This document shows positions 16,472 through 19,321 of a stretch of DNA of 64,000 nucleotides, piece by piece. The translations under genes and the position numbers were made by a program. Position 1 is the stretch's first letter; each line of letters starts with the position of its first letter. Location: contig NZ_JAMXMX010000009.1 of assembly GCF_024055725.1 (NCBI RefSeq), positions 1 through 64,000 on the forward strand. Reading direction: 5' to 3'. The notes below the pieces were generated by a model. That model was not told the origin of the DNA. It was given only the letters and a program-made list of their open reading frames with translations, and ran no database searches. This DNA comes from Actinoallomurus spadix. Its GTDB lineage: Bacteria; Actinomycetota; Actinomycetes; Streptosporangiales; Streptosporangiaceae.

Positions 16472-19321
16472 TCACAGAGAACTGATGGATCGCTCCCGCA
16501 ACACCTTTCTCTGCAGCTCAAGGGCCATGAGGTCGCCGAAAAGGCGGTTGTGCTCCTCGCGGTGCTCGACCGGATTCAGCCGTCCGAGTTTGGACTGCAG
16601 TTTCGCGATCTCGCGCGTGACCTGGATCTCCTGCAATCTGGACAGCATTGCGGCGGCATATCGGTCATCCGGATCCCCGCTGGTCCGCAACGGCTCGACG
16701 GCGAGAGCGGTGACCAGGGCCCTGACCTCGTCGTTCGGCGCGGCCTCCCGCAGCCGGCCCGCCCACTCCGGTCCGCTCTGCGCCGTCACCACACCGCCGA
16801 GCTCCGCGATCAGCGACCGGACGGCAGCGTGAGCCGGGACGATCAGCGCCTCGGCGGGCATCGCGTCGAAGGCGGGCCCGAGCAGCGCGGGCCGCTGCAC
16901 CGCGAGCTTCAGGGTCTCGCGCTCGACCTGGACGACCGGATCGTTCGGGTCGTACGCCGGGCGCTGCGCGGCCGGGGCCTGAACCGGCTCGGGCCGCCGC
17001 CCGCGCGCGTCGCCCCGCCGGCCCTCGCCCGGGCGGCCGGAGGCGTGCTCGCGCACCCGCCGTAGGACGAACTGCTCGTCGAGGAAGCCCGTCCACTTGT
17101 CCAGGTCGATGGCGTAGCGCTCGCGCATGCCCCGGTCCCTGATCCCCGCGATGATCGGCGCGGCCGCGTCGATCGCCGCGAGCCGGCCCTCGGTGGTGTC
17201 GAGGTCGTACTTGGCGATCGTCGCCTGGATGGCGAACCGGAACAGCGGGACGCGGGCGGCGACCAGGTCGCGCACTGCCGCGTCACCGTGCTGGAGCCGC
17301 AGGTCGCACGGGTCGAGACCGTCCGGCTGCACGGCGACGAACGTCTGGGCGGCGAACCGGTGCTCGGTCTCGAAGGCGCGCAGCGCGGCCTTCTGGCCCG
17401 CGGCGTCACCGTCGAAGGTGAAGATCACCTCACCGCTGGCCTCGTCCTGGTCGAGCAGCAGCCGGCGCAGGATCTTGATGTGCTCGTCGCCGAAGGAGGT
17501 GCCGCAGGTGGCGATGGCGGTGCCGACGCCCGCCAGGTGGCAGGCCATGACGTCGGTGTAGCCCTCGACGATCACCGCCTGCCGCCGCTTGGCGATGTCC
17601 TTCTTCGCCAGGTCGGCGCCGTACAGCACCGACCCCTTCTTGAACAGCGGTGTCTCGGGGGTGTTGAGGTACTTGGGGCCGTCGTCGCGCTCCTCCAGCC
17701 GACGCGCGCCGAACCCGATGACGTCGCCGGTGAGGTCGCGGATCGGCCAGATCAGCCGGCCGCGGAACCGGTCGATCGGCCCGCGCCGTCCCTGGCTGGC
17801 CAGCCCGCCGGTGACGAGCTCCTTGTCGGTGAAGCCTCGGCCGCGCAGGTGCCGGACGAGCGCCTCCCACTCGTTCGGCGCGTAACCGACGCCGAAGCGC
17901 TCGGCGTCGTCCCGGCCGAAACCGCGCTCGGCCAGGAAGCGCCGGCCGAGCTCGGCCGACGGGGTGAGGAGCTGCTCGGCGAAGAACTCCGCCGCGGCCC
18001 GGTGGGCCTCCACCAGCCGGGTGCGCTCGCCCTTCTGCCGGCCGGGGACGTAGCCGCTGTCGGTGTAACGGAGCTGCACGCCGGCCTTCGCCGCGAGGCG
18101 CTCGATCGCCTCGGCGAACGACAGGTGCTCCATCTTCTGCACGAAGGAGATCGCGTCACCGCCTTCCCCGCAGCCGAAGCAGTTCCCCGTCAGAATGTTG
18201 TCTTCGAGAACGAAGGCATGCCCCTCGTCCACTACAGCGCAGAAGACCTCCTCAACTCGCTCGGTCTCTTCGACCGACTTCACCACCCAGCCACGGCGGG
18301 CGAACTTCTTCGCCGCGGATTCGAACCGAAAACGGTGCTCGTCTATCAGGAAGAAGTCGTCCGTCAGGTCCTCGTTGACGAAGTGAATCCGGAAGATCGA
18401 GCTCGGCTCCCGCCCCGGAAATCCTTCCCGCACTTGCTCAGTGATCCCGTAAGTGCCGATACCCAGGCGTGCGCAGAGGGTCCGGACATACTCCAAGACG
18501 TCTCGGTCAGCGCAATGGAGCATGACCGTACCGTCCTTGGCCACGTGACCGTCCGCCGCCACGTAACCTGCCAGCCATCCGTAGAGATACGGCGTCGACT
18601 CGTCGAGCGGTGGAAGCTCGCAGAAGAACCGCGGAAGGTGGTGTACCAGAAGCTGACCACGCCAGCCGCTGGATCCTGCCATGTCATCGACCGTCACATG
18701 GTTCAAAGGGAACCATTTGAGCAGTTGATGATCCTTTATGGTATCGAGTGTGGCCACACTTCCGGTGCCATTGAGGGTACCGTCACCGAAAGTGATCCCA
18801 TGGGCGATACCGAAGGGTGATGGCGTCGTTCGTTTGACGCGCGACCCGGGGAAGACCCAAGCCAGCCGATGCCCTTGCTTGAGGTCTCGGGTGACGACTT
18901 CACGATTCCAGTCCCGCTTCTTGCCCGCACGCACGAACCAGCGGTGCTCCGCGGTCGCGTAAAGTTCCTTCGTTTGACCGTTCCTACCCAGGACCACCCT
19001 CATGAGTGGCTGGACGCCGAACGAGTAGAACGGAGCGTAGTGCCACTGTGCGTCGCGCCCGAGGATACGGTGGGTTCCGCCCGCCAACTCGCGGATGGGC
19101 CGGAGGCCCTCCCAGGTGAGCACTCTGGTCTCGCCCGCCAAGCAGTGCCAGAGACCGTTCGAGACGTTGAACGACGGGGACTTCTCGTCGTGGAAGGGGC
19201 AGAGGCCCTTGAGCGCGCCGCCGCCGGCGTTGCGGAGTTGGACGTACTCCCCCACAACAGCGTCGATCGGCGACCGTTCGCGTACGAGGGCGATGTCTTC
19301 ATCGCGGATCCGGCCTGCCAC
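16472..19321 (-). CDS. dnaG: DNA primase DnaG with an in-frame intein in the zinc finger
   Basis: A 949-residue precursor. Residues 1-59 carry the first half of the CHC2 zinc finger (C-P-F-H at 41-44). Residues 60-380 are an intein. From Cys381 the primase resumes with C-F-G-C-G-E-G-G-D, then the TOPRIM core (V-E-G-Y-T-D-V-M, F-D-G-D-A-A-G) and the DnaB-binding C-terminal domain. Spliced length would be 628 residues, normal for actinobacterial DnaG. Zinc ligands Cys41, His44, Cys381 and Cys384 come together only after splicing. It starts 386 bases from the divergent ATPase gene and precedes the sigma gene. Confidence 0.96.
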   Translation of the reverse strand: MAGRIRDEDIALVRERSPIDAVVGEYVQLRNAGGGALKGLCPFHDEKSPSFNVSNGLWHCLAGETRVLTWEGLRPIRELAGGTHRILGRDAQWHYAPFYSFGVQPLMRVVLGRNGQTKELYATAEHRWFVRAGKKRDWNREVVTRDLKQGHRLAWVFPGSRVKRTTPSPFGIAHGITFGDGTLNGTGSVATLDTIKDHQLLKWFPLNHVTVDDMAGSSGWRGQLLVHHLPRFFCELPPLDESTPYLYGWLAGYVAADGHVAKDGTVMLHCADRDVLEYVRTLCARLGIGTYGITEQVREGFPGREPSSIFRIHFVNEDLTDDFFLIDEHRFRFESAAKKFARRGWVVKSVEETERVEEVFCAVVDEGHAFVLEDNILTGNCFGCGEGGDAISFVQKMEHLSFAEAIERLAAKAGVQLRYTDSGYVPGRQKGERTRLVEAHRAAAEFFAEQLLTPSAELGRRFLAERGFGRDDAERFGVGYAPNEWEALVRHLRGRGFTDKELVTGGLASQGRRGPIDRFRGRLIWPIRDLTGDVIGFGARRLEERDDGPKYLNTPETPLFKKGSVLYGADLAKKDIAKRRQAVIVEGYTDVMACHLAGVGTAIATCGTSFGDEHIKILRRLLLDQDEASGEVIFTFDGDAAGQKAALRAFETEHRFAAQTFVAVQPDGLDPCDLRLQHGDAAVRDLVAARVPLFRFAIQATIAKYDLDTTEGRLAAIDAAAPIIAGIRDRGMRERYAIDLDKWTGFLDEQFVLRRVREHASGRPGEGRRGDARGRRPEPVQAPAAQRPAYDPNDPVVQVERETLKLAVQRPALLGPAFDAMPAEALIVPAHAAVRSLIAELGGVVTAQSGPEWAGRLREAAPNDEVRALVTALAVEPLRTSGDPDDRYAAAMLSRLQEIQVTREIAKLQSKLGRLNPVEHREEHNRLFGDLMALELQRKVLRERSISSL
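18182..19144 (-). mobile_element. Intein with LAGLIDADG homing endonuclease, inserted in DnaG
   Basis: A 321-residue protein intron (precursor residues 60-380). It begins with nucleophile Cys60 (C-L-A-G-E-T-R-V, block A). The Thr/His block B is T-A-E-H-R-W-F-V (about 123-130). Two dodecapeptide motifs, G-I-T-F-G-D-G (175-181) and L-A-G-Y-V-A-A-D-G (250-258), mark a DOD-type endonuclease. Block F is V-D-E-G-H-A-F-V (364-371), and the end is L-T-G-N with Asn380 before +1 Cys381. The penultimate residue is Gly rather than the usual His. Base composition is visibly more A/T-rich than the flanking primase, consistent with horizontal entry. Confidence 0.95.

Follow-up and report, generated by a model that had tools for sequence, protein, structure and literature searches.

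Within a stretch of 64,000 nucleotides from Actinoallomurus spadix (contig NZ_JAMXMX010000009.1, positions 1 to 64,000; the whole stretch is called the window below), the gene for the primase DnaG is interrupted by an intein of 321 residues, which separates the two halves of the CHC2 zinc finger and ends directly before one of the zinc-binding cysteines. We read the element as an intein, probably still mobile, that has invaded the dnaG finger, that likely splices by chemistry of the class 3 kind and that is best regarded as selfish; to this reading as a whole we give a probability of about 0.72. The element can be explained without any control function.

An intein divides the zinc finger of DnaG

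The primase frame is intact: it covers 949 codons of the minus strand, starts with a GTG at 19321 and closes with a stop codon that ends at 16472. In Pfam searches the precursor matches the CHC2 finger in two stretches and carries DNAG_N, Toprim and DnaB-binding domains, with a LAGLIDADG domain inside the insert; without the intein, DnaG would have 628 residues. The zinc ligands of the CHC2 finger are C41 and H44 upstream of the insert and C381 and C384 downstream of it. The parts of the precursor are listed below, with conservation counted over the 31 intein-bearing DnaG rows analysed (window included), over the 15 DnaG inteins aligned first (the window and 14 others, two of them mini-inteins) or over an alignment of 109 inteins described in the next section.

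16472..19321, minus strand: dnaG precursor open reading frame, 949 aa, GTG start; TIGR01391 dnaG above cut-off
19145..19321, minus strand: N-extein, residues 1-59, first half of the CHC2 zinc finger; PF01807 positions 3-59
18182..19144, minus strand: intein, 321 aa, precursor residues 60-380
16472..18181, minus strand: C-extein including the stop, second half of the finger and primase core; PF01807 positions 56-96
19199..19201, minus strand: zinc ligand Cys41; C-x2-H in 31/31 DnaG rows
19190..19192, minus strand: zinc ligand His44; C-x2-H in 31/31 DnaG rows
19142..19144, minus strand: intein Cys1; Cys in 15/15 DnaG inteins and 102/109 inteins
18953..18955, minus strand: block B Thr64 (B:7) of the TxxH motif; 108/109
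18944..18946, minus strand: block B His67 (B:10); 109/109
18938..18940, minus strand: block B Trp69 (B:12), class 3 signature; 109/109
18335..18829, minus strand: LAGLIDADG homing endonuclease region, intein residues ~106-270; motifs AHGITFGDG and GWLAGYVAADG
18239..18241, minus strand: block F Cys302 (F:4), probable initiating nucleophile; 109/109
18188..18190, minus strand: block G Thr319 (G:5), class 3 signature; 100/109, the others Ser (5) and Val (4)
18182..18184, minus strand: C-terminal Asn321 of the intein; 108/109
18179..18181, minus strand: Cys381, +1 nucleophile and third zinc ligand; 31/31 DnaG rows
18170..18172, minus strand: zinc ligand Cys384; 31/31 DnaG rows

A sequence-only reading of the window had placed an intein in DnaG at 18182 to 19144, and its boundaries hold to the base, with residues and coordinates right. 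It had also put the insert between the two halves of the CHC2 finger, which the divided PF01807 match bears out, and had recognised Cys381 as both the +1 residue and a zinc ligand, the latter role being established knowledge of CHC2 fingers. The predicted structure of the intein (pLDDT 95.2, the predicted local distance difference test score) takes an intein-endonuclease fold in which the HINT fold is recognised. Of the 50 fold-search matches listed, 46 are inteins and the remaining four are bacterial-intein-like or Hedgehog domains; class 1 and class 3 inteins are not distinguishable by this search.

Blocks A, B, F and G of the splicing domain are recognisable in the 15 DnaG inteins aligned first. 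Eight residues (C1, T64, H67, W69, C302, T319, G320 and N321) are invariant in these 15, and Cys1 and Cys302 are the only intein cysteines kept in all 15. H44 and C381 are separated by 336 residues in the precursor and by 15 after splicing, so that the precursor would be without a normal zinc ribbon; before splicing, Cys1 stands in the sequence register of the third ligand (C41-x2-H44-x15-C60). The genome, which is 98% complete, yielded a single CHC2 gene, and dnaG is an essential gene. The earlier proposal that an essential enzyme depends on protein splicing is upheld on these two grounds, and splicing is presumably obligatory because no second CHC2 gene was found. That the window intein itself splices is suggested indirectly, by this single essential gene and by the low dN/dS of splicing domains in eroded and endonuclease-less copies (given below).

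The same site is occupied in two phyla

In all 31 intein-bearing DnaG, of which 23 are actinobacterial and 8 alphaproteobacterial, C-x2-H precedes and C-x2-C follows the intein, which places every one at the same site. A scan of species genomes retrieved 11 relatives, every one in DnaG at the window's insertion point: Nonomuraea cavernae, Streptomyces cacaoi, a Nocardioides metagenome-assembled genome, five Azospirillum, a Proteobacteria metagenome-assembled genome, Candidatus Odyssella and Sphingomonas canadensis. Within the taxonomic family of the window organism, matches at E 1e-10 occur in 26 of 297 genomes and 8 of 68 genera; 20 of these genomes have the intein in DnaG at the window's site, 5 have it in RtcB and 1 has a fragment without a clear host. 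A sample of the phylum gave 3 matches in 396 at E 1e-15, namely the window, a further DnaG row (L055) and a dCMP deaminase (L056).

The genus itself holds full-length, eroded, mini and empty alleles, so that loss and retention can be compared. The window intein is full-length, one congener (G007) has an eroded copy, two (G006 and G002) have mini-inteins, and 4 of the 8 genomes are without the intein. The sequence-only reading had left the exact insertion point to alignment with intein-free DnaG; the site is empty in all four such proteins of the genus.

A viral scan with a single query found no relative, and a later alignment-based scan gave 79 loci. Of these, two (L134 and L135) were not extracted and two more (L111 and L128) were set aside as truncated or misread, leaving 75 viral rows, which with 34 bacterial rows (31 DnaG and 3 RtcB) make up the alignment of 109, comprising 101 different sequences. 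L020 was omitted as a repeat, its flanks and intein ends matching L009; the fragments L041-L043 were omitted from the trees, and L056, L136 and L137 stand outside the 109.

Other hosts of the family

The RtcB-type hosts in the window's taxonomic family comprise three whole proteins (L035, L036 and L037) and two fragments (L041 and L042), identified by Pfam for L035 and by resemblance for the other four; the intein is inserted between I-N/Q and C-H-H-N. Further hosts include ribonucleotide reductase, PAPS-reductase-like and poly(A)-polymerase-like proteins, and others. The family uses several cysteine sites, of which the zinc finger is one; in the 75 viral rows the +1 residue is Cys 71 times and Ser 4 times. 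Because the family also lives in hosts without a finger, such as ribonucleotide reductase, the need for a conserved Cys explains its location in the finger.

Several further features of these hosts were observed. The reading frames of L041 and L042 are interrupted or cut short, which gives the appearance of decay in both the intein and its host gene. In L056 (1501-2424), from an actinobacterial genome, the intein interrupts dCMP deaminase adjoining its zinc-binding region. L066 and L086, a ribonucleotide reductase and a DnaB-like helicase, are single phage proteins with two to three LAGLIDADG stretches and may hold more than one intein.

Movement between phyla, phages and plasmids

Between actinobacterial and alphaproteobacterial DnaG, mean identity is 58.5% in the splicing domain, 42.4% in the endonuclease region and 36.5% in the extein (~390 aa). 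The splicing domain exceeds the extein in all 184 between-phyla pairs; the endonuclease region does so in 135 of 160, a weaker excess. The trees place the main actinobacterial DnaG inteins and the alphaproteobacterial ones in separate groups, with L055 standing apart. A single clade of all DnaG inteins, that is, one origin, is rejected in the 40-row tree, which omits eight bacterial rows and most viral rows (approximately unbiased test, p 0.0015; the group was defined by host gene, but after the first tree had been seen); with two phage primase rows joined to the DnaG group, the p value is 0.025.

Mobile replicons carry the same insert. The phage CHC2 primase L059 falls within the alphaproteobacterial DnaG intein group in all three trees. 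In L137 (3001-3927), a Skermanella plasmid MobF relaxase is fused to a CHC2 finger, with the intein exactly at the DnaG site, and this intein branches just outside the alphaproteobacterial group (100/99). Four phage proteins (L057, L058, L084 and L088) have the intein before C-x2-C and are of primase type by their Toprim or DNAG_N domains; Pfam names no finger in them. L057 lies beside the actinobacterial DnaG inteins in the 109-row tree (support 93), a position not recovered in the smaller trees. On the simplest reading of these relationships, one conserved DNA target, present on chromosomes, phages and plasmids, would have been invaded repeatedly. The presence of the same insert in phage, plasmid and chromosomal finger genes suggests that the intein crosses between phyla on vehicles that themselves carry the target site.

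Endonuclease, decay and selection

The window intein has both LAGLIDADG-type motifs with their acidic residues and matches PF14528 above its cut-off; it is full-length and probably still mobile, with an endonuclease that its motifs predict to be active. GC content at third codon positions (GC3) is 0.74 in the intein and 0.95 in the adjoining 600 bases of the C-extein. Among the congeners, the 276-aa copy of G007 has neither endonuclease motif intact, and G006 and G002 are down to 172 and 154 aa; all three keep the splicing residues. The ratio of non-synonymous to synonymous substitution (dN/dS) in their splicing domains is ~0.22 per pair (0.083/0.385, 0.092/0.408 and 0.099/0.447), against ~0.05 in the exteins. 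Such values would fit continued splicing under a looser constraint than that on the primase.

Between the window and these three congeners, dS is 1.05-1.15 in the splicing domain and 0.37-0.38 in the extein. The roughly threefold difference suggests that the window's intein may be a separate acquisition from theirs, although the contrast is possibly inflated by the differing GC3 of the intein. The quick 109-row tree groups the window with the three congener inteins (support 98), and the 40-row tree groups it with L004 at just 81/92. A genus tree of the exteins, covering six of the eight genomes (L046 and L047 left out), resolved no relationships.

Features of class 1 and class 3 combined

The window intein combines the class 3 triplet W69/C302/T319 (WCT) with Cys1, a penultimate Gly and the terminal Asn321. 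Class 3 inteins are usually defined by the lack of a nucleophile at position 1 (PMC3196547). A survey that covered 1701 of them admitted only inteins without an N-terminal Cys (PMC7891396). Since Cys1 is present, we call the window intein class 3-like and do not file it as class 3, and under the rule of the survey its family would fall outside. The sequence-only reading had overlooked this mixed signature, which bears on which cysteine starts the reaction. Conservation across the family makes Cys302 the likelier initiator; Cys1 is probably ancestral or has an auxiliary role. Seven of the 109 rows (L108, L110 and L113-L117, some identical or nearly so) have lost Cys1; all are phage rows with Pro1 that keep W, C and T. 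Pfam identifies the host of L115 as ribonucleotide reductase, and the other six hosts are assigned to the same enzyme by resemblance. These seven rows offer a natural hint that Cys1 may be losable. Three WCT inteins with Cys1 or Ser1 are, moreover, reported to splice by the class 3 route (Tori and Perler 2011).

Several points weigh against the element as we read it. The intein scores below the cut-offs of the Pfam and NCBIfam splicing (intein) models. Cys1 in 102 and B:7 Thr in 108 of the 109 rows are as in class 1, B:7 being Asp in the class 3 Msm DnaB intein (PMC6195587), and more drift of Cys1 would be expected if it were dispensable. The raw Trp and Cys tallies are partly selected, because the patterns of the viral scan contained Trp or Cys; as a check on this selection, the 59 viral rows retrieved by the Cys pattern alone all have Trp, and the seven retrieved by the Trp pattern alone all have Cys. 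A profile of eight mini-inteins, run against solved sequences, had as its best match 6riz, a gp41-1 intein into which the WCT motif was engineered (E 5.5e-4, a weak match), nearly tied by the class 1 Ssp DnaB intein 1mi8 (E 7.1e-4), and none of the 15 solved sequences listed is a natural class 3 structure; the near-tie means that this result decides nothing on class. A profile of the 15 DnaG inteins aligned first also gave weak matches to solved sequences, the best being PI-PfuI in the endonuclease part (E 0.009).

The class 1-like residues lend some weight to ordinary class 1 splicing, in which Cys1 would start by an N-S acyl shift and Cys302 would be the block F helper, Cys being the second commonest residue there. 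We nevertheless consider it unlikely, if the most serious of the alternatives, because Cys at F:4 is present in 109/109 rows and Cys1 is not universal, the seven Pro1 phage rows retaining W, C and T; high conservation of Thr at G:5 is, furthermore, reported for class 3 only (PMC7891396).

Proposed mechanism and the question of control

On the reading we prefer, the LAGLIDADG endonuclease would recognise the DNA of the conserved finger (an aromatic residue, H/Y/F, then C-F-G-C), and its cutting would lead to the intein being copied into empty alleles. In the precursor, Cys302 would attack the bond preceding Cys1, the N-extein would then be transferred to Cys381, and Asn321 would cyclise. Cys381 would afterwards serve as a zinc ligand, splicing having restored an ordinary primase of 628 aa.

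The sequence-only reading had proposed that zinc or redox state could gate splicing, and none of the present results supports such control. Taken further, this idea becomes a domesticated switch: zinc or a disulfide on Cys1, Cys302 or Cys381 would silence the primase under stress and later release it. In the class 3 Msm DnaB intein, zinc bound by the initiating Cys stops splicing, as does oxidation through a disulfide (PMC7360933, PMC6195587), and by analogy inhibition of the window intein by zinc or oxidants is plausible. Cys1, Cys302 and Cys381 should, judging from known inteins, meet in the splicing centre. The retention of Cys1 and Cys302 as sole shared cysteines, and the persistence of mini-inteins without an endonuclease in 2 of the 8 genus genomes, would also suit a switch. 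However, the intein is absent from half of the genus genomes, and its relatives also occupy RtcB, ribonucleotide reductase, dCMP deaminase and other hosts. The survival of mini-inteins has a further explanation, since an essential gene will rarely lose such an insert by exact deletion. A domesticated switch therefore seems to us improbable. We are just as doubtful of a more specific version, in which finger and splicing centre share their metal chemistry and zinc or a Cys1-Cys302 disulfide keeps the unspliced primase inactive. Once the metal was released, Cys302 could start splicing, Cys381 would next receive zinc in the mature finger, and the otherwise dispensable Cys1 would be retained for the gate; were this true, these inteins would be checkpoints that sense metal and redox state and act on primer synthesis. 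The empty sites of sister species, and the hosts that do not bind zinc, point rather to a selfish element with a requirement for a Cys. It is scarcely credible, finally, that the insert is non-functional or misassembled in a pseudogene, or that another primase does the work: the one CHC2 gene found, the intact frame, the filled site in 30 further DnaG rows and purifying selection all speak against it. A pseudogene or assembly fault, in particular, is ruled out by the frame, the single CHC2 gene and the many relatives.

Gene neighbourhood

The genes around dnaG, in the part of the window from 13886 to 25745, are listed below; some of the names rest on matches below model cut-offs.

15258-16430: RpoD-type sigma factor, just downstream of dnaG
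23841-25745: dGTPase
within 13886-25745, on the other strand from dnaG: ABC ATPase nearest UgpC
within 13886-25745: efeO, a SigJ-type sigma factor and a ferredoxin-reductase-like protein

Comparison with known systems

The inteins described here make up a well-populated natural family (31 DnaG in two phyla, with phage and plasmid primase-type genes in addition) in which an essential metal site can be completed only once the intein has gone. Their combination of Cys1 with WCT provides a direct test case for the relation between class 3 and class 1 splicing. The WCT inteins with Cys1 or Ser1 that Tori and Perler reportedly treated in 2011 are those of Catera Gp206, Nocardioides JS614 TOPRIM and Tfu2914. 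These are reported to share the mixed signature; the TOPRIM host of the Nocardioides JS614 intein may be a primase.

In the literature searched, most subscription journals lying outside it, no paper was found for 'DnaG intein' or for an intein together with CHC2. The window's DnaG site is described in none of the accessible portions of PMC5874633, PMC8861304, PMC6195587, PMC7886860, PMC6293099 and PMC5987646, and DnaG is named there as a host in PMC5874633 only, in a review table that gives no site, class or mechanism. Inteins of mycobacteriophage TOPRIM primases occupy a host of phage primase type and are inserted in its conserved centre (PMC5050341); in the part of that paper available, the insertion is placed in the active site and is not stated to be in a zinc finger, and the class is not stated. 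Group I introns are found in phage primase genes (PMC7886860).

The closest known systems are the class 3 inteins in the P-loop of DnaB (Msm DnaBi1, 6bs8; Mch DnaB1, 6rix). Msm DnaBi1 is a mini-intein without an N-terminal nucleophile, with a +1 Ser and a DxxH motif (PMC6195587, PMC7360933). The window intein differs from it in having Cys1, a +1 Cys, TxxH, a penultimate Gly and an apparently intact endonuclease.

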